The position numbers and the translations under genes were made by a program. The notes beneath the pieces are model-generated. The model was not told the origin of the DNA, searched no databases, and saw nothing but the letters and a program-made list of their open reading frames with translations. Shown here in pieces: positions 2,891 to 36,975 of a stretch of 64,000 nt of DNA (the stretch's first letter is position 1; each line of letters opens with the position of its first letter). Origin of the DNA: Acetobacter oryzifermentans (GTDB lineage: Bacteria; Pseudomonadota; Alphaproteobacteria; Acetobacterales; Acetobacteraceae); NCBI RefSeq assembly GCF_001628715.1, contig NZ_CP011120.1, positions 868,001 through 932,000 on the forward strand, given 5' to 3'.

Positions 2891-4901
2891 CAGTCAGCAT
2901 CAGCGTACCTCGTGCCGGGCAGGTGCCCGCCAAGGTAACTGAAAGTACAGCCCCACTTTGCACGTGGGGGTGATGTGCCAAGGCATGGGTGTGCTGCGAG
3001 TCGTCATTCATCCCTGTGCGATCCGGAAAAGCTGACCATGCAAGGAAAGACGGAGTTCCGGTTTTCGTCAATCTCACCCGCAAGCCATGCCGTGTTGCTG
3101 TCATGACATGGGCGGACATTCTCTGGCCAATAAGTGGAGCAAGAAAGAGAGCAGCCAGCCGGTTCAGACTATCCTGCATGATGGTTGCTGCCCGGCGTTC
3201 TGTAAAGTTTAGCTGTGATACCAAAGCCACATCTGGTGCTGGCAGGGGGACGTGAGGCAGCGCAGAGGAGTCGTTTATATGGGTTAAGGCGCGGTGTGCT
3301 AGCAGATCTGCATAGCGGCGGATGGGGCTGGTAAAATGCGTGTAGTGCTTGAGCCGCAGGCCATAATGTGGTGCTGCGCAGGTGCTGTAGCGTGCCATAG
3401 GGCGCGGGCTATCGGGGCTGGGCTGCGCATGGGTACGGAAAAGTGCTGGCAGCGCCCGCGCTTGCAATTTTTCCGCTGCGATCTGATTAGCCAGAATCAT
3501 GCACGCCGCCACCATATAATGTGCTTCCTGAGTGTTACGCGGCACAAAGGCACAGGGTTGCCCGCTGCTATCAAACTGCACGTTCCAACCTGTTTCTTCC
3601 CGTTCCATAACACCGCGTTGGAGGGCTGCGCGCCGAATGGCGGCCCCCGCATTGCGCAATGCGGGAAGTAGCGCAGGTGCTAACAGGGCCGCAGGGTGTT
3701 CGGGTGGCAAAGTGGGCTGATGTGCTTGTGTCTCAAAGACTTGCTGCACGGTTTCATATGTCAGCCGCGCTGCACTTTGCATGATCCCACGGCCAATATG
3801 AGCAGAAACTACATGCCCATCCGGGGTAATGTGGATATCAGCAAAGAGGCAAAGCCGATCCTGCCCCGGCAAAAGGGAACAAGCCTGTGCAGAAAGAGCC
3901 AGTGGCAGCATGGGCACCACTCTGTCTGGCAGATAAATGGAATTGCCACGTTCTTGCGCTTCCATATCCAGCGCGGAGCCGGGCTTTACCCAATGCGCTA
4001 CATCGGCAATGGCCACAATAAGATGAAAACCCTCAGCCGTTTGTTCGGCCCAGAGTGCATCATCAAAATCATGCGCTGAGGCATCATCAATGGTGATAAG
4101 CGGCAGGTGGCGTAAATCTGTGCGGCCAGAAGGCGCAGGTGCGCTCTGTAAGGCAGTGTTCTGGTGTGCGATCTGCCGGGCTTCGGCCTCGGCCTGTTCT
4201 GAAAATGTAGTGGGTGGATGATGGATAAGCAGGCTGAGGCGTGAGGGCATGCCTGCATCATCAACCTTGCCCAAAACGCTGTGCACACGTCCCGCATAAG
4301 CGCCATGAGGCAGAGCATGCGGTGTTGCAAGCCCAATCTGTTGCGGTGCGAGAGGGAGGGTGTTTGTACTTTCTTCTGGGGTAAGCGGCAGGTTTAACCG
4401 CGCATCACATGGCAGCAACAAGGGTTCTGGCGTGTTGGCGGGAGTAACGGGCAGGTTGTTATCAAGCCGGGTAAGAAGCCGCAGGCCACGCGCCTCGCGC
4501 TTTTGAGTGTCCGTTGCCGGGCGCAGGCGTACCAGCACAATATCGCCGGGAAAAAGATACGGCGTATCCGGCGGCTTTATCAGCAATACAACAGGGCGGG
4601 AGAGTGCATCATCGGCCAAAAAGCCAGCCGCGTTGCCATCATCCCGAATATAGGAAACCCGCATACGGGCAACATCTGGCAGGCCGATGGAAGCCTTGAG
4701 CGTGCCGGCAGCAAGATCAAGCAGATCCCCCGCAACGGCCATATCGTGCAGCAAAGCGCGTATGCTGGCCTTTTGCCGCACGGGAAGCTGGAAGGTGCGC
4801 AGAATGTCCGTTAGCCCGGTGGCGGCTCCGGCGCGGCTTTCAAGAAAAGCCCGTAGCTCCTGCACAGATGGCAGGGCAGAAACATACGGGCTTGCCGACA
4901 T
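2871..4901 (-). CDS. rnr: Ribonuclease R-like 3'-5' exoribonuclease (RNB domain)
   Basis: This is an RNase II/R family exonuclease that degrades structured RNA processively from the 3' end. The N-terminal region (1-75) resembles the winged-helix domain, and cold-shock-like segments occupy about 80-230. The RNB domain begins near 265 with the metal-binding Asp cluster in TIDDASAHDFDDAL (Asp272, 278, 280, 281). A short divergent S1-like segment follows from about 600. At 676 residues it is shorter than typical RNase R (about 730-810) and lacks the basic C-terminal tail. It starts six bases after the topA stop, so topA and rnr are co-transcribed, as in other alphaproteobacteria. Confidence 0.9.
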   Translation of the reverse strand: MSASPYVSALPSVQELRAFLESRAGAATGLTDILRTFQLPVRQKASIRALLHDMAVAGDLLDLAAGTLKASIGLPDVARMRVSYIRDDGNAAGFLADDALSRPVVLLIKPPDTPYLFPGDIVLVRLRPATDTQKREARGLRLLTRLDNNLPVTPANTPEPLLLPCDARLNLPLTPEESTNTLPLAPQQIGLATPHALPHGAYAGRVHSVLGKVDDAGMPSRLSLLIHHPPTTFSEQAEAEARQIAHQNTALQSAPAPSGRTDLRHLPLITIDDASAHDFDDALWAEQTAEGFHLIVAIADVAHWVKPGSALDMEAQERGNSIYLPDRVVPMLPLALSAQACSLLPGQDRLCLFADIHITPDGHVVSAHIGRGIMQSAARLTYETVQQVFETQAHQPTLPPEHPAALLAPALLPALRNAGAAIRRAALQRGVMEREETGWNVQFDSSGQPCAFVPRNTQEAHYMVAACMILANQIAAEKLQARALPALFRTHAQPSPDSPRPMARYSTCAAPHYGLRLKHYTHFTSPIRRYADLLAHRALTHINDSSALPHVPLPAPDVALVSQLNFTERRAATIMQDSLNRLAALFLAPLIGQRMSAHVMTATRHGLRVRLTKTGTPSFLAWSAFPDRTGMNDDSQHTHALAHHPHVQSGAVLSVTLAGTCPARGTLMLTDAVYEH

Positions 4902-29682: not shown

Positions 29683-30456
29683 ATGCTCGATGTCATGCCG
29701 CCGGAAAGCAGTTTTTACACAACAGCAAGAGGCCAGTGCTTTCTGGCTCTGGTTGGTGAACGTCTGCGCTGGTTCTGGCCAGATCTGGGGCAGCAGCACG
29801 CTGTGCTGGGGCTAGGGCATACGGCTGCGTATCTGGAAAAGTTGGAGAATGGCAGAGCCACACCAGCCTGTTTGGTTGCTGCCAATGCGCCGCTATGGGG
29901 CGCGACATCCACGCCCGGTCTAAGCTGTGTGGTGGATCTGCACAGCCTGCCGTTTCAGCCCAAGCAGTTTGACCGGGTATTAATGGTGCATGCGCTGGAT
30001 GATCGCCAACACTCCGTATCTGTTCTGCGAGCCGCCGGGCAGGTGATGAAGCCCGATGGCAGGTTGCTGTTAATTGTGCCCAGCCGTTTTGGTGGCCGGG
30101 CGCGGTTGCGGGGCACGCCATTCCGGCACGATGCGGCTTTTTCCCGCCGATGTCTCAAGCAAACGCTTGCATCTGCCATGCTTAAACCAGAACAATGGGA
30201 TGAAGCTCTTTTTCTACCCACGGGCGCTATGAGTTGGATGCGCCATAACGGACGAAAAATGGATATTGCAGGCAAGGTGCTCTGCCCCGGCGCGGGTAGC
30301 CTGATATTGGTGGAAGCGGTGCGGGATGAGTATTCTGCCCTCTCCCTGCCAGTAAAGGCGCGGCAGCGTTGGCTTGCCCGTTCCCTGTTGCCGGTAAGGG
30401 GCACAGCAAAGGCCATACAGGACAGAAAATACGTTTCACGCATTTCGCGGCGTTGA
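29683..30456 (+). CDS. Class I SAM-dependent methyltransferase
   Basis: The 257-residue protein has a methyltransferase-11-type core: a divergent glycine-rich motif I (VLGLGHTAAYLEKL), an acidic CVVDLHSLPFQPKQFDRVLM motif, and the post-motif region QVMKPDGRLLLIVPS. The C-terminus is basic and helical. The substrate is unknown; proteins at this position next to gloB are usually annotated only as methyltransferase-domain proteins. Its start codon lies 82 bases from the gloB start on the opposite strand. Confidence 0.8.
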   Translation: MLDVMPPESSFYTTARGQCFLALVGERLRWFWPDLGQQHAVLGLGHTAAYLEKLENGRATPACLVAANAPLWGATSTPGLSCVVDLHSLPFQPKQFDRVLMVHALDDRQHSVSVLRAAGQVMKPDGRLLLIVPSRFGGRARLRGTPFRHDAAFSRRCLKQTLASAMLKPEQWDEALFLPTGAMSWMRHNGRKMDIAGKVLCPGAGSLILVEAVRDEYSALSLPVKARQRWLARSLLPVRGTAKAIQDRKYVSRISRR

Positions 30457-30480: not shown

Positions 30481-32214
30481 ATGGTGTTATCCGCCGGATT
30501 TCATAGCAGGTTGGGGCCGGGTTCCATTTTCACCTCCTTTGTTCTTTGCAGTTTGCTGGCGATATTTGCTGCGCTGGGCGTTTTTGCAGTGCTGCCAGAC
30601 AGGCTTCTGCGTGGTGCTGCGGTGTGGCGGGCAGAAATTATGGGTGGCCTGTGGGCGCTCTGTGGCGTGTTGGCCATTGTGGGAGCTGCGTGCAAGCTGG
30701 AGGGCGAACTTAGCTGGTTTCCGGTTTTTGGGCTGGATGGCCCAGCCTTGCCCATGCTTGTTTTGCTGGCGTTTGCCGGGGGCGTAGCCGGTAGTGGCGC
30801 TGCGGCGTTGGCCTGCGTGTTTGTGGGCATGGGCTTTCTGGCCCTTTCTCCGCTGGTATTTGGGTTGCTTACGGGCACGGCACTGGTGCTTTTAGCGGCA
30901 GGCGGGTGGCGCAGTGTGTGTCTGCCATTTGCTGTGTTGCCCGCTTGTATTCCTGCAGATAGCCCTTTTTGTGTGCCGCTTTTGTGCCTGACTGTGCTGC
31001 TGATGGGCTGGGCGGTTTCTGTGCAAAAAGGGCCAACGGCTGTGCTGCCCGGTATGGTGGGGCTGTTTTTGTTGGGCCGCCTTTTGGCCGAAGTGGGTGA
31101 GCTTTCTGTGCTGCCACAGGTTATGCTGGTGGCCAGCGGATGTTTGGTGGCGGCAACAGGCACTTTGCAAGCCATGCGCGATAAAGGTCTGGCGCGTATT
31201 GCATCTGGGCTATGTGCGGCATGGTATGGCATATTGGTGGTGGCTGTTGCGCTGGCTTTGGTTTCCAGTTTTGGCGGTATGGAAACATTCCGTATGGCCA
31301 TTATTCTGGGTATGGGCGCCCCCATGCTGGCCCTTATTGGCCTGTTATGGCTGGCGCAATGGCAGCAGGTAGAACCAAAGCGCCGCATTGCCTCCCTTTC
31401 TGGCCATGTGCTGGTTGCTGGCTTGTTAATGCTGTTTTCCATTATGCCGCCTTTTGGCGGGTTTGCCGTTTTATGGAGCCTACTTGTTGGCGCGTATGAT
31501 GCCATTGCCGTGGCGCAACCCGTTGGCGCGCTTACCATAATGCTGCTGCTTGCACTGCTGGGCAGCATTATGGTGCTTATGGGGGCCGGGTTGCTGCGCG
31601 CAGGTGCGGCCCTGCTGTTTCCTTCCACTGTTTTTCAGCCAAATCAGGCCCCCGTGGCGGCAGAGTTTGTGTGGCCTAGCTGGATATGTGCTGGGGCCGC
31701 CATGTTGCTTGTGCTGTTACCGGGGCTATGGCTTTCGCTGGCGGATCATTTGGTGGTGGGGCCTGTTGTGCCGCCGCTGAAGTGGAGCCGCATTGCTACA
31801 ATCTGGCTGGAAGGCGGCGGGGCCAGTTTTACCCCTGTTTTTACATTTTTGGCGTTGGGTGCGGCCTTGGCGGTGGCTGCCGTGCTGGTAAGGCTGCTGG
31901 GTTTTCTGCCCTTTGAGCGTGTTATCAAGCCGGTGCCAGTATGGCGCCAAGGCGCACCTATCATACAGCCCGCAGAAGGGCGCACAGTTTCTTACGAGGG
32001 CGCGGCGCCTTTATGGCCTGCCTGCATGGCGCTTTTTGGGTTGGTGGCTGAAACCCGAAAGGACAAACGGCTGGCCCGCCGTAGCCGTGTTGCCCTGCGT
32101 TACGGCAGGCGTTGGTTGTTCCGGGGTGCCGAATGGTGTGAAACACAGGGCTTGGTGTTGATTCTGCTGCTTTTGGGTGGCGGCCTGCTGGTGGGGCTGT
32201 TTGTAGGAAAATGA
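30481..32214 (+). CDS. Hydrogenase-4/complex I antiporter-like subunit (HyfB-like)
   Basis: First gene of a six-gene complex. The 577-residue polytopic protein resembles HyfB/NuoL-type subunits, with about 14 membrane helices and the segment ATGTLQAMRDKGLARIASG. That segment corresponds to the conserved 'ALxQxDxKRxLAYSS' stretch of proton-antiporter-like subunits. The following helix, which normally holds an HxxxK pair, reads ILGMGAPMLALIGLLWLAQW and has neither residue, so proton translocation may be impaired or altered. HyfB of E. coli is about 670 residues, so this one is shortened. Its stop overlaps the next start by four bases. Confidence 0.75.
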   Translation: MVLSAGFHSRLGPGSIFTSFVLCSLLAIFAALGVFAVLPDRLLRGAAVWRAEIMGGLWALCGVLAIVGAACKLEGELSWFPVFGLDGPALPMLVLLAFAGGVAGSGAAALACVFVGMGFLALSPLVFGLLTGTALVLLAAGGWRSVCLPFAVLPACIPADSPFCVPLLCLTVLLMGWAVSVQKGPTAVLPGMVGLFLLGRLLAEVGELSVLPQVMLVASGCLVAATGTLQAMRDKGLARIASGLCAAWYGILVVAVALALVSSFGGMETFRMAIILGMGAPMLALIGLLWLAQWQQVEPKRRIASLSGHVLVAGLLMLFSIMPPFGGFAVLWSLLVGAYDAIAVAQPVGALTIMLLLALLGSIMVLMGAGLLRAGAALLFPSTVFQPNQAPVAAEFVWPSWICAGAAMLLVLLPGLWLSLADHLVVGPVVPPLKWSRIATIWLEGGGASFTPVFTFLALGAALAVAAVLVRLLGFLPFERVIKPVPVWRQGAPIIQPAEGRTVSYEGAAPLWPACMALFGLVAETRKDKRLARRSRVALRYGRRWLFRGAEWCETQGLVLILLLLGGGLLVGLFVGK

Positions 32215-33227
32215 AGCAGGATTTAACATGGGGCTGGGCATTTGGCTGTGTTGCTGCTCTGGCCATTCAGGCAGCCCTTATGGTGCTTGTAGCACCGTGG
32301 TTTGCGGGGTGGGTGCATCGTCTTGCTGGCCGATTGGTGGGTGAACCGCGCTTTCCTGCAGGGGGGAGGTGGCAGGAAATCTGGCATCAGTTCCGCCGTC
32401 CGTCCTTATATGGACGGCAAGATGGGCTGAACGGCGTTTTTTGTGCCTTGGCGTTGGTTCTGGCAGTGTTGGCTTGTGGGTTGGTGCCGGTATTTACACT
32501 TACAATGCCGGGCTTTCCCGCACCGGGCATGCTGCTTGTATGCACCATTCTGGTGGCCGTAGGTGTTTTGCTGGACTTGCCGCAGGCTGTGCAGGAGGCC
32601 TCTGCCGCACAACAAGGATGCGCGGCCATTGTGGCGGATGCGTTGCTCTTGCCGGTGTTAACGCCCGTGCTGTTGCTAACCGGGGCGCATGATCTGGTTG
32701 CGTTTTTGGGCAGGCTGCATGTGCTTTCTCCTATTACAGAAGGCGCACCTTACGTGCTGGCTGGTGTGGCGTTGTTTTTGGCAACAGCCTTGGCACGGCG
32801 GGATGAGCAAACAGCTTCTGCCACACTTTCCGGCCCGGATAGAGCCATGTGGCTTTTAGCAGCAGATTGCATGCAGATGTGCTGGGTTACGTTGGCGGCA
32901 GATGTGGCTTGGGCAGGCAGCTTGGCCATGCCGGGAGAAAGCGGGGCCGAAAACTGGCTGACCCAATGTGTAGAAGGCTTGGGCCTATGGATGTTTAAGC
33001 TGCTTGTGGCGTCTTTCATGCTGGCGGTGCTGCGTATGGCTCTGCTGCCTGCAGGGCGTAGGGCGCGTGTGCGGTTGGGTGCTATTTTTCTGCTGGGCGT
33101 TCTGGCATGGCAGGTCACTTCTTCTCACGTTGCAGCCCCCCCATCTGAGCCTGAAAACCACAACGTTGAGGATGAAAACACCCAAGGCTATTCAACAGAA
33201 CCAGCGCCGGAAGGAGAACCTTCATGA
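32211..33227 (+). CDS. Hydrogenase-4 component C/NuoH-like membrane subunit
   Basis: The 338-residue membrane protein resembles HyfC/HycD and NuoH, the subunit that connects the peripheral arm to the membrane arm. The N-terminal GWVHRLAGRLVGEPRF and RRPSLYG stretches match that family's cytoplasmic loops, followed by about eight helices. A 40-residue hydrophilic tail at the end is unusual for the family. It overlaps both neighbours by four bases (ATGA), so the operon is translationally coupled. Confidence 0.75.
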   Translation: MKQDLTWGWAFGCVAALAIQAALMVLVAPWFAGWVHRLAGRLVGEPRFPAGGRWQEIWHQFRRPSLYGRQDGLNGVFCALALVLAVLACGLVPVFTLTMPGFPAPGMLLVCTILVAVGVLLDLPQAVQEASAAQQGCAAIVADALLLPVLTPVLLLTGAHDLVAFLGRLHVLSPITEGAPYVLAGVALFLATALARRDEQTASATLSGPDRAMWLLAADCMQMCWVTLAADVAWAGSLAMPGESGAENWLTQCVEGLGLWMFKLLVASFMLAVLRMALLPAGRRARVRLGAIFLLGVLAWQVTSSHVAAPPSEPENHNVEDENTQGYSTEPAPEGEPS

Positions 33228-33814
33228 CACTGGCCGCCATTCTCATGCCCTTGCTGGCGCTATGCGTTGTGGCGCGGGGTATCGGTTTTTTGCCTTTGCT
33301 GGGGCTGGTTGCCGCTGCTGCTATGCTGGTGGACGGGCATACTCCTTTACAGCAGGCAGGGGCGGCGATGGCCGCAGTTTTTGCCATAGGGCCAGTGCTG
33401 TTTTTACTGCGCTATCAGCATGATGCCGCGCGGGAACGCACAGGCAGCGCCATACCGTTTTTTGCACTTGGCCTGATGGTGTTGTTGCTTCTGGCCTGCA
33501 CGCGCGCAGGTGTTGCGGTGTTTCCTGCCAGTTTATGTGTGGTTGTGGCTGGCCTGGTTTCGGTTATCTGCCACCATAGCATGGTATGGCAATGGGCCGG
33601 GTTGCTTACGTGTGTTGAAGGTGTGCTGCTGTGTGGCGTGCAGGCGCATCAACCTTCTGTGGTGGGTGTGGCCGGTTTGGCTGGTGCTGTTGTGGCCATG
33701 CTTGGGGGGATGTGCATCCACCGTATTATGCCGCGCGTGGTGCCATTGCGCCCACCTTCCGCCCGTAAAAAAACCTCCCCCGACTCTCCAGAAAAGAACG
33801 GAGATGCAGCATGA
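33224..33814 (+). CDS. Hydrogenase-4 component E-like subunit (HyfE/NuoK-like)
   Basis: A 196-residue hydrophobic protein with about six helices and a basic cytoplasmic tail (RKKTSPDSPEKNG). Size, topology and position between the HyfC-like and HyfF-like genes fit HyfE, a membrane subunit whose C-terminal half resembles NuoK. Sequence motifs are weak, so the call rests largely on gene order. It overlaps both neighbours by four bases. Confidence 0.6.
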   Translation: MTLAAILMPLLALCVVARGIGFLPLLGLVAAAAMLVDGHTPLQQAGAAMAAVFAIGPVLFLLRYQHDAARERTGSAIPFFALGLMVLLLLACTRAGVAVFPASLCVVVAGLVSVICHHSMVWQWAGLLTCVEGVLLCGVQAHQPSVVGVAGLAGAVVAMLGGMCIHRIMPRVVPLRPPSARKKTSPDSPEKNGDAA

Positions 33815-34944
33815 CAGGCACAGCAGGGGCAGGCATGTTTCTGGCGGCACTGGCATTTGTGTGGCCCTTTTTGGGGGCGGCCGCAGTATGTGCGGTGCCT
33901 GTGGCGCGTAGCCGTGAACTGGCAATATGGATGTCTGCCATAGGCTGTGTGCTGGCGTTGGCAGTTTTTGTTTTTCCGGCGTCGGGCGCTGTGGCCGCTG
34001 GGTGGGATGATGACCCCGTGCAGCGTGCCGGGCGTGTCATGCTGGCTTTTGGCCTGCTGCTGATGGTGCTTGAAAACGGCATCTTGCATGATAGGCTGGT
34101 ACGTAGCCTGCCGCATGTTTCCACCGCTTTGGCGGGGTTGGCCTGTGTTGCGCCAGACCCCGCTGTGGGGTTGGGTATTTTAGAAGCCGCTTTGGCATGG
34201 GGGGTATTTGTTTTTACCCGTCCAGCCGGGCAGGCCAGAATGGGGTGGGGGCTTATCCGTAATGGCTCGGTTGGCACGTTTTTGGTGCTTTCCGGCTTGC
34301 TGCTTCCAGCCAATACCGTTGTTTCTGGCCTGATGATGGCTTGCGGATTGGTGGTGTTAACCGGCCTTTCTCCCTTTGGGCAATTTTGGCAGGATGAAAA
34401 TGATACTTTCCTGTTTTTGCCATTTGCCGGGGCGGCCCTGTTGCTGGCCATGCGCCTGCGCACACATGGGGGAGAGGTGTTTGAAACCGCCCTTGTGCTG
34501 TGTGGTCTGCTTTCTGTGTGGCTTACGGCCTGTGCCGGGCGCTTTCCCGATAGGCAAAGGTTGTTCCGCACCTTTCCATCTGCATTGGCGTTGATAGCGG
34601 TTGGTATTCAGGCCGATGTGGCAGCGTTGCTGTTTTTATGCGGTTGGTGCCTTGCCGGTGGCGGGCGTGCAGGCCGTGGTTGGGCTGTTAATACCTTGGC
34701 CTGTTTTCCGCCCAGCGCGCCATTTGTGGGCTGCTTGCTCCTGCTTTCCATGATGAGTGATTGGTCATGGCCGCTGGCGTTACTGACAGTTGCGGGTATT
34801 TTGGCGGCAGTTACGCGTGCTGTGCCTGCGCGGGACATTACGCATCATTTCTGGCCGCAGGATGCTGCCGGGCGTGTAGCCTGTTCCGTGCTGACAGCTA
34901 CGGGGCTGCTGGTGCCACTGGCTATGATGCTGGGAGCTTTCTGA
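33811..34944 (+). CDS. Hydrogenase-4 component F-like antiporter subunit
   Basis: A 377-residue polytopic protein with about ten helices, fitting HyfF/NuoN-type antiporter subunits by position and by the LTGLSPFGQFWQDEN segment (compare 'GxPPxxGFxxE/K' of NuoN-like proteins). HyfF is normally about 525 residues, so this version lacks several helices. Charged residues usually found mid-membrane are sparse. The start overlaps the HyfE-like stop, and the next gene follows after one base. Confidence 0.6.
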   Translation: MTGTAGAGMFLAALAFVWPFLGAAAVCAVPVARSRELAIWMSAIGCVLALAVFVFPASGAVAAGWDDDPVQRAGRVMLAFGLLLMVLENGILHDRLVRSLPHVSTALAGLACVAPDPAVGLGILEAALAWGVFVFTRPAGQARMGWGLIRNGSVGTFLVLSGLLLPANTVVSGLMMACGLVVLTGLSPFGQFWQDENDTFLFLPFAGAALLLAMRLRTHGGEVFETALVLCGLLSVWLTACAGRFPDRQRLFRTFPSALALIAVGIQADVAALLFLCGWCLAGGGRAGRGWAVNTLACFPPSAPFVGCLLLLSMMSDWSWPLALLTVAGILAAVTRAVPARDITHHFWPQDAAGRVACSVLTATGLLVPLAMMLGAF

Positions 34945-34945
34945 A

Positions 34946-36442
34946 ATGAATGCGGCTTCTCATATCTGGGCGGGGGAGGAAACAGAAACCCCGTGGCGCT
35001 TTCGGCTGCAAGAAATGGCATGGCGCGATTTGGTAGATGCGCTCAAGCATGATGATCTGCCGTTTGTAGGCCTGTGGTGTGATGGCACAGATGTACATGC
35101 GCTGTTTTTACCAGATGGCCAACCGCTGGCAGCCACATTGACGCTGGAAGATGGGCGATACCCTGCACTTTCTCCCGCAAGAGATATTTCCTGCCTGTAT
35201 GAACGCCGCATTTACGATCTGTATGGCGCAGAGGGTATGTGGGCTACGGATGTCAGGCCTTTGTTGGACCATGATGTGTGGTCTTCTTCCATGCCTTTGG
35301 CGGAGCATCCGGGGGCTGGCGGAGGGCAGAAGGGGCTTATCCACTTTCAGCCTGCGGAACATATGCACCAAGAGGGTGATATGGCGGATGGCTGGGGGCC
35401 TGCCACAGGCGGCATGGAACCACCTTTGCATGTGGCGTTGGCCCTGCGAGAAGGGCGTATTCGCGCAACGGAAACAGTTACCGGTTACGCACATCGGGGC
35501 ATGGAACTGCGCTGGCGTAACAGCCGGGTGGAAGATGCGTGTAAACTCAGCGCACGTGTGGCGGCTGGGCAATCTGTTGCGCAGCAGGTGGCGTTCTGTT
35601 TGGCTGTGGAAGATGCCTGCAAGGAGCAGGTCGGCCCGGAAATTCGGCTGCTGCGTGTTGCATTGCTGGAACTGGAACGTATTTACCACCATCTTTTTCT
35701 ACTGGCGGATATGGCGCGTCTGGCAGGGGCACGATTGGTAGCCTCTGGCTGCATGGCGCTACGAGAGCGGATGATACAGGAGGCCGCCCCTATTACCGGC
35801 TCACGCCTGTTGATGGATGTATGTGTGCCGGGTGGCCTTTCCCTGCGCCACGCCACGCAAATGGGTGATATGTGCGCCCGCCTGTGCGAGGTGGCCGCGC
35901 GTGATTACCCAGCCTTGCTGGCTTTGTGGCAAGAATATCCGGGTCTTTCCATGCAACTGGCGGGCATGGGTAAGGTTACGGCAGATTTGCTGGAGCGTGT
36001 GGGGCTGGATGGCCCCACAGCACGTGCCGCCGGGTGGGATTGTGATGGCCGCCGCATGATGCCGGGTTACGAAGGTATATGGCGCTTCACCTCTGGCAGG
36101 CAGGATGGCACGGTAGAAGACCGCGCCATGCTTTTATTGGAAGAGGTAGGGGAAAGCCTGCGTATGCTGGATGAAGTGGCCTCCCGCATTGGGCTAACGG
36201 CTGGTGGCAGCGTGCAGCTTTCCATGCAGGATGGTGAAGGCACAGGCATGGTGGAAGGCCCGTGGGGCGGTATTCTGTACTGGGTGCGCCTGCGTGATGG
36301 CCGGGTAGAACAGGTTTTTACCCGCACCCCATCTTCCGCCACTTTGTTGACGTTTGAGGCGATATTGCCGGGGCATCAGCCAGATGATGTTGCCTTGCTT
36401 GCACGGTCATTGGATATCAACGCAGCAGCGCTGGATAGGTAA
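34946..36442 (+). CDS. Fused NuoC-NuoD-like large subunit lacking [NiFe] ligands (HyfG-like)
   Basis: The N-terminal 130 or so residues resemble the NuoC-type 30-kDa domain (ISCLYERRIYDLYG), and the rest is a NuoD/hydrogenase large-subunit domain. The HRGMEL motif (183-188) is kept. The first Ni-binding CxxC, expected after LSARV, reads A206-A-G-Q209, and no C-terminal DPCxxC exists; the end (ILPGHQPDDVALLARSLD) has no cysteine. The protein therefore cannot bind a [NiFe] centre in the usual way and is closer to NuoCD. It has 498 residues versus about 570 in E. coli HyfG. It is coupled to a NuoB-like subunit downstream. Confidence 0.8.
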   Translation: MNAASHIWAGEETETPWRFRLQEMAWRDLVDALKHDDLPFVGLWCDGTDVHALFLPDGQPLAATLTLEDGRYPALSPARDISCLYERRIYDLYGAEGMWATDVRPLLDHDVWSSSMPLAEHPGAGGGQKGLIHFQPAEHMHQEGDMADGWGPATGGMEPPLHVALALREGRIRATETVTGYAHRGMELRWRNSRVEDACKLSARVAAGQSVAQQVAFCLAVEDACKEQVGPEIRLLRVALLELERIYHHLFLLADMARLAGARLVASGCMALRERMIQEAAPITGSRLLMDVCVPGGLSLRHATQMGDMCARLCEVAARDYPALLALWQEYPGLSMQLAGMGKVTADLLERVGLDGPTARAAGWDCDGRRMMPGYEGIWRFTSGRQDGTVEDRAMLLLEEVGESLRMLDEVASRIGLTAGGSVQLSMQDGEGTGMVEGPWGGILYWVRLRDGRVEQVFTRTPSSATLLTFEAILPGHQPDDVALLARSLDINAAALDR

Positions 36443-36477
36443 ACAGTGCACGTGGGCGGAATGAAAGGCAAAAACAC

Positions 36478-36975
36478 ATGGGGCTGATACGGGCAGTATT
36501 TGATGCAGCCTTTAAGCAGGATATCCGGCGCATGAAGCCCGTAGGCCCGCGCTGGCCGCTGCTTTTGTTCCATGTGGATACAGGTGGCTGTGGCGGCTGT
36601 GGGATGGAGCTACAGGCCCTGCGTTATGCGCCATATGATATGGAAGGCGCGGGCTTTGGTTTTGTAACATCGCCTCGCAATGCTGATGTGCTGCTCATAA
36701 CCGGCGCGCTTACGCGTGCCATGGCTCCGGTGCTGGAAGCTGCATGGCAGGCCATGCCTACCCCTAAAGGGCTGATTGCCGTAGGAAGCTGCGCTTTGGA
36801 TGGCGGCATGTTTCCCGAAAATTATACGGTATTGGGTGGGTTGGAGCGCCGGGTTTCCATAGATCTGAAAATACCCGGCTGCCCGCCTGCGCCTCAGGAT
36901 GTTCTAAACGGTCTGTGTTCCCTGTTTGGCAAACAGGCCGTTCCTCCAAAGGAACCTGAAACCTCAGCTGTGTGA
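36478..36975 (+). CDS. NuoB/HyfI-like iron-sulfur subunit
   Basis: The 165-residue protein carries all four ligands of an N2-type [4Fe-4S] cluster: Cys38 and Cys41 (GGCGGCGMEL), Cys105 (VGSCALDGG) and Cys135 (IPGCPPAPQ). In hydrogenase-4 and complex I this cluster passes electrons next to the large subunit or quinone. It is the only redox cofactor site visible in the operon, since no ferredoxin-like HyfA or HyfH gene is present. It lacks the ferredoxin-like tail of longer homologues. Its stop overlaps the convergent pssA stop by 12 bases. Confidence 0.9.
   Translation: MGLIRAVFDAAFKQDIRRMKPVGPRWPLLLFHVDTGGCGGCGMELQALRYAPYDMEGAGFGFVTSPRNADVLLITGALTRAMAPVLEAAWQAMPTPKGLIAVGSCALDGGMFPENYTVLGGLERRVSIDLKIPGCPPAPQDVLNGLCSLFGKQAVPPKEPETSAV

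Follow-up and report, generated by a model that had tools for sequence, protein, structure and literature searches.

A Ni-Fe-free complex I relative of acetic acid bacteria that has lost proton-path residues and may have become a pseudoenzyme complex

The window analysed here is a stretch of 64,000 nucleotides from Acetobacter oryzifermentans (contig NZ_CP011120.1, positions 868,001 to 932,000). A check of its open reading frames confirmed six intact, closely packed genes at positions 30481-36975, designated A to F, which follow a methyltransferase-like gene on the same strand:

29683..30456, plus strand: methyltransferase-like gene (PF08241, 2.1e-05; synteny), ending 24 bases before A
30481..32214, plus strand: A, HyfB/HycC (NuoL/M/N, MrpA/D)-type antiporter-like subunit of 577 aa, canonical proton-path residues lost
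32211..33227, plus strand: B, NuoH/HyfC/HycD-type subunit of 338 aa, without a Pfam match of its own, assigned via homologues
33224..33814, plus strand: C, HyfE-type small membrane subunit of 196 aa, assigned by position, about six TM helices and an iterative HMM
33811..34944, plus strand: D, HyfF-type antiporter-like subunit of 377 aa, homology via intermediates
34946..36442, plus strand: E, NuoD/HycE/HyfG-type large subunit of 498 aa (PF00346; HycE match), without Ni-Fe ligands
36478..36975, plus strand: F, NuoB/HyfI/HycG-type small subunit of 165 aa (PF01058; HycG match)

The subunit types agree with those proposed in an earlier note on this DNA. The intergenic spacings from A to F are -4, -4, -4, +1 and +35 bases; the tight coupling described in that note as four ATGA overlaps or near-contacts is accordingly found as three four-base overlaps and one near-contact, while the remaining junction is a 35-base gap. 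The methyltransferase-like gene is a possible operon companion in Acetobacter. E and F were assigned by Pfam (PF00346, 6.1e-20, and PF01058, 1.1e-26) and by a search of solved structures that yielded HycE (7z0s_E, 2e-17, residues 70-495) and HycG (7z0s_G, 3e-30). Pfam returned nothing for A, B and D at E up to 1 and a single irrelevant row below the cut-off for C. The types of A, B and D were established through intermediate sequences, the B homologues in L057 and L068 matching PF00146 with 5e-18 and 8.7e-38, respectively, and for A additionally by a fold comparison, in which the predicted fold of this subunit, the only one modelled, still matched HycC of formate hydrogenlyase. The HyfE-type assignment of C, based on position, size, helices and the iterative HMM, is the weakest of the six.

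Formate hydrogenlyase and hydrogenase-4 thus provide the best solved-structure matches for A, E and F, but the window operon differs from them by the absence of Ni-Fe ligands, of a nearby ferredoxin-type subunit and of HypD. As previously noted, E carries HRGMEL (at residue 183) along with A206 and Q209; beyond C366, its 498 residues include no further cysteine. Both Group 4 motifs, RxCGxC and DPCxxC, are missing, with RVAAGQ and SLDINAAALD in their places. A frameshift in 34946-36442 hiding Ni ligands was looked for and rejected, since E aligns co-linearly with related sequences and no locus row holds both L1 cysteines except L143 and L155. These two were discarded as orthologues because they represent true Ni-Fe enzymes (CGIC, DPCxSC). 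The ferredoxin pattern CxxCxxCxxxC has a single match in the 64 kb, located at position 2690 and far from the operon, in line with the earlier claim that the locus lacks a ferredoxin, HyfA or HyfH-type subunit, and the operon of six genes includes neither NADH-module nor NuoI-type electron-input genes. No HyfA- or HyfH-like insertion was detected in the 34 loci that were scanned for the pattern over stretches of 3.4 to 21 kb; judged by their letters, the pattern matches in L005, L069, L070 and L130 look like wrong-frame chance matches. The Ni-Fe maturation protein HypD (PF01924) was not found in the genome with a profile that detects it in four of 14 control genomes.

The NuoB-like subunit F retains all four ligand cysteines of an N2-type [4Fe-4S] cluster (C38, C41, C105 and C135), as had been claimed, and also carries C147. 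The four positions are invariant columns in an alignment of 20 rows (A4), and they are present in 51 of the 52 rows of the branch described below, comprising 44 of 45 rows with F in place and all seven moved copies. The moved copies are distant from the operon in G022, G008, G085 and G046, and in three g32 genomes they lie at a distance of about 4 kb. Two species of the genus g100 have lost three of the four ligands in genes that are still open, and in G126 the E gene is in pieces and the unlinked F gene is interrupted as well.

The Ehr family was reportedly defined in a paper by Marreiros from 2013. The window complex shares with it a NuoD-like subunit without the Ni-Fe CxxC (AAGQ and INAAA), a NuoB-like subunit with the ligands of a predicted [4Fe-4S] cluster and, by homology, NuoH-, HyfE- and antiporter-like membrane subunits. 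An Ehr cluster of six syntenic genes without Ni-Fe motifs is reported in Sulfobacillus (PMC4378227), EhrA/C/L/S of Geobacter are of the Ehr type (PMC7894505), and the antiporter-like subunits of Ehr members are suspected of linking redox chemistry to the translocation of charge (PMC6349859). Descent from a Ni-Fe-free Ehr-type complex without a visible electron-input subunit, as suggested earlier, is supported, but the joint lack of Ni-Fe and electron input that had appeared distinctive turned out to be usual for this six-gene family. Among 26 related loci in which the proton-path residues are preserved, 15 of them from other alphaproteobacterial families with the same Ni-Fe-free gene order, none has the L1 CxxC in E and none contains a credible ferredoxin-motif gene within the available stretch. 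This combination is not the novelty, as similar Ehr complexes are already published. What the note had missed is that three membrane subunits of the window lineage (A, B, D) have also lost their proton-path residues, and E its conserved site motifs, which shifts the question from the supply of electrons towards whether the complex is still an enzyme.

In the 26 loci, termed canonical, the customary Glu, Lys and His of the proton path are present in the antiporter-like subunits A and D and in the NuoH-like B; they are absent from nearly every row of the window branch, termed eroded. Both labels were assigned from the A and D sites, with loci lacking a usable A row labelled by D; L071 was labelled by default on the basis of an incomplete D with the TM10 Lys retained. 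The rows of L143, L155, L156 (E broken) and L075 (complex I itself) were dropped, and the site table of A leaves out rows under 340 aa (L051, L055). At six sites of A, the residues E, K, K, H, K and E stand in all 23 canonical rows (the His in 22), and each of them in none of the 31 eroded rows. The TM7 Lys of D is present in 26/26 canonical versus 0/48 eroded rows, and none of the latter 48 has the TM12 Glu; in B, the Glu of the AEP motif is found in 24/24 versus 2/49 rows. In the window itself, B has lost this Glu and that of EYSG, and D has lost the TM7 Lys, the His, the TM10 Lys and the TM12 Glu; a Glu is retained in the TM5 column of D, as it is in 12 of the 14 Acetobacter cluster rows. 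The Lys-His-Lys/Glu axis that is missing from both antiporter-like subunits is described as the proton wire of such modules (PMC11496545); the window complex differs from other Ehr complexes in the loss of the canonical residues for the suspected charge translocation. Many eroded A rows, including that of the window, are gapped rather than substituted at the columns of TM5 and TM7, next to which two predicted helices were located:

30850..30894, plus strand: residues 124-138 of A, uncharged predicted helix near the canonical TM5 Glu column, at which the window row is gapped
30970..31023, plus strand: residues 164-181 of A, uncharged predicted helix near the canonical TM7 Lys column (GSKAGL), at which the window row is gapped

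The intermediate loci L062 and L072 display substitutions in place within well-aligned sequence (GSKAGL to GSLAGL; AMTKVAL to AMLPVAL in L062). In Gluconobacter-side loci, A is not recognised by the HMM and a membrane ORF of only 393-492 aa occupies its place.

In E, the two site motifs that characterise Ni-Fe-free relatives, SGDS and NKSFNxSYSG, are both changed:

35555..35584, plus strand: residues 204-213 of E, L1 site, RVAAGQSVAQ (RxSGDSTVA(H/Y) in Ni-Fe-free relatives, RxCGxC in Ni-Fe enzymes)
36401..36436, plus strand: residues 486-497 of E, L2 site, ARSLDINAAALD (NKSFNxSYSGxDL or DPCxxC in relatives)

The acidic residue of the L1 site (D208) is Asp in a fraction of.08 and Asp or Glu in 5 of 50 eroded rows. 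The change of K487 to Arg in the window is mild, and columns outside the site motifs (159, 259 and 336) are lost as well. H183, R204, E242, R360 and D367 are present in all 50 eroded rows, and since E of L071 and L057 retains SGDATVAH, the erosion of this subunit is graded. The genome also encodes, at a separate locus (NuoD at C1:1802130-1802942), a respiratory complex I, the core subunits of which share ancestry with the window complex; its NuoL and NuoM retain the proton-path residues. Of the complex I quinone site, E keeps the His (H183), and RVAAGQS, which contains no Tyr, aligns with RLDYVSP of the genome's own NuoD, the Tyr of which belongs to the quinone site.

Along with the losses, the eroded rows share new charged residues, mainly in B, where D210, R211, D219, D231 and R275 occur in 39, 36, 35, 40 and 35 of 49 rows, respectively, versus 0 to 2 of 24 canonical rows. 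R150 of D is found in 39/48 eroded rows, and K183, located just past the helix of residues 164-181, and R540 of A each in 23/31 and in no canonical row. The number of charged residues in hydrophobic stretches separates the two groups more widely for B (6.42 vs 4.16) than for A (4.3 vs 3.83) and D (4.69 vs 4.12), for which they hardly differ. The new charged columns argue against plain decay; a new route for ions, or new contacts, would explain them as well as a scaffold would.

In the tree of E, the 50 eroded and two intermediate rows form one branch with support of 100/99; the tree labels predate the recognition of L155, the only 'eroded' row off this branch, as a Ni-Fe enzyme. The six genes are under purifying selection, with dN/dS values between the window and L004 of.043 (A),.020 (B),.029 (C),.019 (D),.042 (E) and.008 (F), those of the flanking genes being.018 (alaS),.030 (psd),.011 (pssA),.102 (gloB) and.131 (methyltransferase). 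An E orthologue without a second, NuoD-type match occurs in 11 of 33 genomes. The broader genome-wide count of 388 matched genomes out of 397 includes NuoD of complex I and is not a count of this complex. An aldo/keto reductase gene lies 5' of A in many loci of acetic acid bacteria, also in canonical L068 and L056, and at some distance from A in canonical L157; the 15 loci from other families do not have it in front of A, so that this neighbourhood may be plain synteny.

With both catalytic and proton-moving residues gone, the complex may no longer be an energy-converting enzyme. The ancestor would have been a six-subunit, Ni-Fe-free, Ehr-type complex I relative in the membrane. In the branch to which the acetic acid bacteria belong, the ancestral proton-path residues have disappeared from the three large membrane subunits and the conserved site motifs from E; the fold, as modelled for A, and almost everywhere the [4Fe-4S] ligands of F have been kept, and some new conserved charges have been gained, mainly in B. 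Such a complex would still assemble without pumping or catalysing as its ancestor did, and might serve, in a mostly non-catalytic manner, as a scaffold in the membrane or as a sensor or regulator that depends on Fe-S. Judged from the sequences, the chances are about even that an Ehr complex has lost its ancestral chemistry and pumping and been put to another, probably non-catalytic use.

An altered but active enzyme, in which an unlinked donor feeds electrons to the F cluster and something is reduced in a remodelled cavity of E while few ions, if any, are pumped, would account for the F ligands in 44 of 45 in-place rows and 7 of 7 moved copies, as in a working cluster, for the constancy of H183, R204, R360 and D367 and for the lowest dN/dS value being that of F. 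The change of both site motifs in E and the two g100 species with open genes and three F ligands lost make it unlikely in our view. Ion pumping by another route, with new charged residues replacing the old path, draws on the new charges of B, on R150 of D and K183 of A, which occur in most of the branch, and on the similar charge counts of A and D in both groups. It appears rather improbable, since none of the modelled core helices of A contains Lys, R200 of A is ancestral (R in 23/23 canonical rows), R373 (31/31 eroded rows) is already R in 15 canonical rows, and A has lost ten conserved charge columns against three gained, two of them C-terminal.

Another reading is a structural aid to complex I or to a different respiratory supercomplex. 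Such a role has been proposed for the deranged bc1 complex of the same bacterial family, the Acetobacteraceae, in which this bc1 and a COX1-like protein, belonging to complexes other than that of the window operon, are retained after the loss of their cofactor ligands (PMC10715153). The main text of that paper contains neither 'antiporter' nor 'formate hydrogen' and mentions 'hydrogenase' once, for a type 1 enzyme, and among the literature matches listed, none deals with this complex in Acetobacter or Gluconobacter. Eleven genomes have the E orthologue and no NuoD match, so that in these the client is not complex I, and such a helper role is quite improbable. That the operon is a decaying relic on its way out is hardly credible: the orthologue is missing from 8 of 33 genomes and E is broken in one, the ORF in place of A is short on the Gluconobacter side, and two GC-rich pairs from outside Acetobacter have dN/dS values as high as.54-.55, but the ratio is at most.154 across the eight Acetobacter pairs, the reading frames are open across the examined loci apart from G126, and new charges have become conserved.

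The new conserved charges and the retention under selection, also in genomes without a NuoD match, suggest a new membrane role, and it is somewhat short of an even bet that a whole six-subunit complex I relative has turned into a pseudoenzyme complex kept for such a role in the sampled acetic acid bacteria. Pseudoenzymes made of a single protein are well known; to our knowledge, it would be rare for a respiratory-type machine of several subunits to retain its architecture once its ancestral chemistry has been lost. Database records of vinegar bacteria call the E gene an NADH-quinone oxidoreductase or hydrogenase subunit, names that may mislead metabolic models. The series from canonical through intermediate to eroded complexes constitutes a natural experiment on which residues of complex I serve pumping and which serve assembly.

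The six open reading frames of the operon at 30481-36975, here termed A to F, were all found and intact, and their spacings of -4, -4, -4, +1 and +35 bases bear out the tight coupling described in the earlier note, the residue statements of which on E and F are exact. E is clearly a NuoD/HycE-like and F a NuoB/HycG-like protein, whereas Pfam and NCBIfam searches with A to D gave no useful family match, so that the names of these subunits (HyfB-, NuoH/HyfC-, HyfE- and HyfF-type) needed proof. Complex I of this genome is encoded at a separate locus, and HypD had no match anywhere in the genome. A methyltransferase-like gene (29683-30456) is located 24 bases upstream of A; its homologue lies downstream, past pssA-psd, in many other loci of acetic acid bacteria.

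Related loci were classified by the proton-path residues of A and D as canonical (residues kept) or eroded (residues lost, including the window), with L062 and L072 as intermediates. With the canonical relatives as reference and TM labels set by analogy with NuoL/M, six sites were defined in A, namely Glu (TM5), Lys (TM7), Lys (TM8), His, Lys (TM10) and Glu (TM12), which 23/23 canonical rows keep (His 22/23) and each of which occurs in 0/31 eroded rows. The TM5 and TM7 columns are gaps in many eroded rows; in A of both intermediates the TM5 Glu is kept and each Lys is lost through substitution in place, so that in these two rows the residues were replaced and the alignment is not at fault. In D, the TM7 Lys is present in 26/26 canonical and 0/48 eroded rows, and the latter contain the TM12 Glu in 0/48, the TM10 Lys in 1/48 and the TM5 Glu in 12 cases, all within the Acetobacter cluster. 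The AEP Glu of B occurs in 24/24 canonical and 2/49 eroded rows, the Glu of EYSG in about 3/49 eroded rows. In a structure model of A, helices 124-138, 164-181 and 280-297 are free of charged residues, and Lys is absent from every helix as far as residue 473. The genome's own NuoL and NuoM, by comparison, keep their proton-path residues. Since such residues are gone from A and D, and the Glu from B, pumping by the complex I mechanism is unlikely.

The sites of E that align with the Ni-binding motifs of Ni-Fe enzymes read SGDS or close (L1, versus CGxC) and NKSFNxSYSG (L2, versus DPCxxC) in the canonical relatives, and AAGQ and ARSLDINAAA in the window. Losses extend to columns 159, 259 and 336, off both motifs. 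The D208 column holds D or E in 5/50 eroded rows, and K487 is Lys in none of the 50, being Arg in the window; every one of the 50 retains H183, R204, E242, R360 and D367. Because both motifs have changed, the ancestral chemistry is unlikely. The window strain carries H213Q (35582-35584), a position that is His in the other Acetobacter rows.

All four cluster ligands of F are present in 23/24 canonical and 2/2 intermediate rows, in 44/45 eroded rows with F in place and in 7/7 moved copies (83 rows minus three duplicates, the G126 piece and the L155 row, with moved copy L161 counted once). The exceptions are L134, a locus from another family with AAPP at the last ligand region and an end that looks out of frame, and L159, where three of four ligands are gone, as in its sister species (L083). 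In this genus, g100 (L159, L083/L084; G100, G157), the frames are open in both species checked, and dN/dS between them is.225 for D,.121 for E and.359 for F. F is located outside the operon in G022, G008, G085 and G046 and about 4 kb away in three g32 genomes; a match was found in 13/13 genomes searched. In G126, F is broken by TAG (C1:218450-218896) and E is in pieces with TGA (C1:1813620-1814954); in its genus mate G046 the unlinked F and E are both open.

The operon is common to 12 Acetobacter loci (L003-L014; a contig end cuts A in L013), and L015 contains only the end of E plus F. The family-wide stretches came from genomes hand-picked, non-randomly, from match lists; names on matches to E of the relative L064 include Gluconobacter, Swingsia, Neokomagataea, Aristophania, Saccharibacter, Oecophyllibacter and Parasaccharibacter, among others. 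A search of a class sample with the E alignment yielded 28 of 289 genomes passing an E-value of 1e-60, three of them from the family Acetobacteraceae. Among 16 loci examined from outside the family, 15 (L128-L142) are orthologous; the sixteenth, L143, encodes a genuine Ni-Fe enzyme. Accordingly, the Ni-Fe-free six-gene complex is alphaproteobacterial and patchy in distribution, and the lack of a ferredoxin gene, pointed out in the earlier note, belongs to the type within the stretches examined. The observation in that note stands, and its interpretation is supported in part. In a midpoint-rooted tree of 79 E rows, 50 eroded rows and the two intermediates form one branch (support 100/99) that adjoins canonical members from the same family and extends beyond acetic acid bacteria proper; the sole row labelled eroded outside it, L155, is a Ni-Fe enzyme. 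L155 (G029, an Acetobacteraceae genome) and L143 (G417) specify genuine Ni-Fe type large subunits with CGIC and DPCxSC. L138 (G564), from an alphaproteobacterial genome of about 0.9 Mb rated 100% complete, retains the canonical complex. An aldo/keto reductase gene, preceded by leucyl aminopeptidase and holC in loci of acetic acid bacteria, lies directly 5' of A in many of these and in two canonical loci; examples are 4285-5130 in L059 and 2950-3786 in the canonical locus L068.

A charged column was regarded as gained if 65% or more of the eroded rows share it and no more than 25% of the canonical ones do. The gained columns of B, nearly absent from canonical relatives, are at the following window positions:

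32838-32843: residues 210-211 of B (eroded rows: D210 39/49, R211 36/49)
32865-32867: residue 219 of B (D219 35/49)
32901-32903: residue 231 of B (D231 40/49)
33033-33035: residue 275 of B (R275 35/49)

Further gains in eroded rows are R150 of D (39/48), K183 (23/31), R540 (23/31) and R544 (21/31) of A, and R189 and D480 of E (33/50 each); counts of charged residues within hydrophobic stretches of A and D are nearly alike in canonical and eroded rows. C of the A. malorum/cerevisiae group (L010, 7681-8883; L012, 7657-8883) has a tail of about 200 residues that is acidic and rich in Pro and Glu; the tail in L008 is shorter.

Pairwise Nei-Gojobori estimates (own script) for 17 pairs, some without A or F and two canonical, gave dN/dS below.56 for every gene compared, with some dS above 1, and at most.154 across eight Acetobacter pairs. 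Between the window and L004 the six genes range from.008 to.043; the flanking genes gave.018 (alaS),.030 (psd),.011 (pssA),.102 (gloB) and.131 (methyltransferase).

The shared new charges speak against plain decay of the complex: the branch was remodelled and not solely eroded. A role solely in support of complex I does not fit those genomes that lack NuoD: of 33 genomes, 24 carry an orthologue of E as judged by score, one a broken copy (G126) and eight none (including G029, whose match is the Ni-Fe enzyme), and 11 of the 24 lack a second, NuoD-type match (G032, G118, G170, G061, G136, G070, G101, G158, G054, G131, G302). The complex might instead act through a new mechanism, as an enzyme or an ion mover; the lost motifs suggest that it may no longer be an enzyme. 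It keeps its architecture, the ligands of a single cluster and, in E, a conserved shell, and the new charges lie mostly in B. The best reading is that the complex was repurposed and is probably non-catalytic. 'Deranged' respiratory proteins of Acetobacteraceae, described in PMC10715153, are a precedent for such proteins in the same family.
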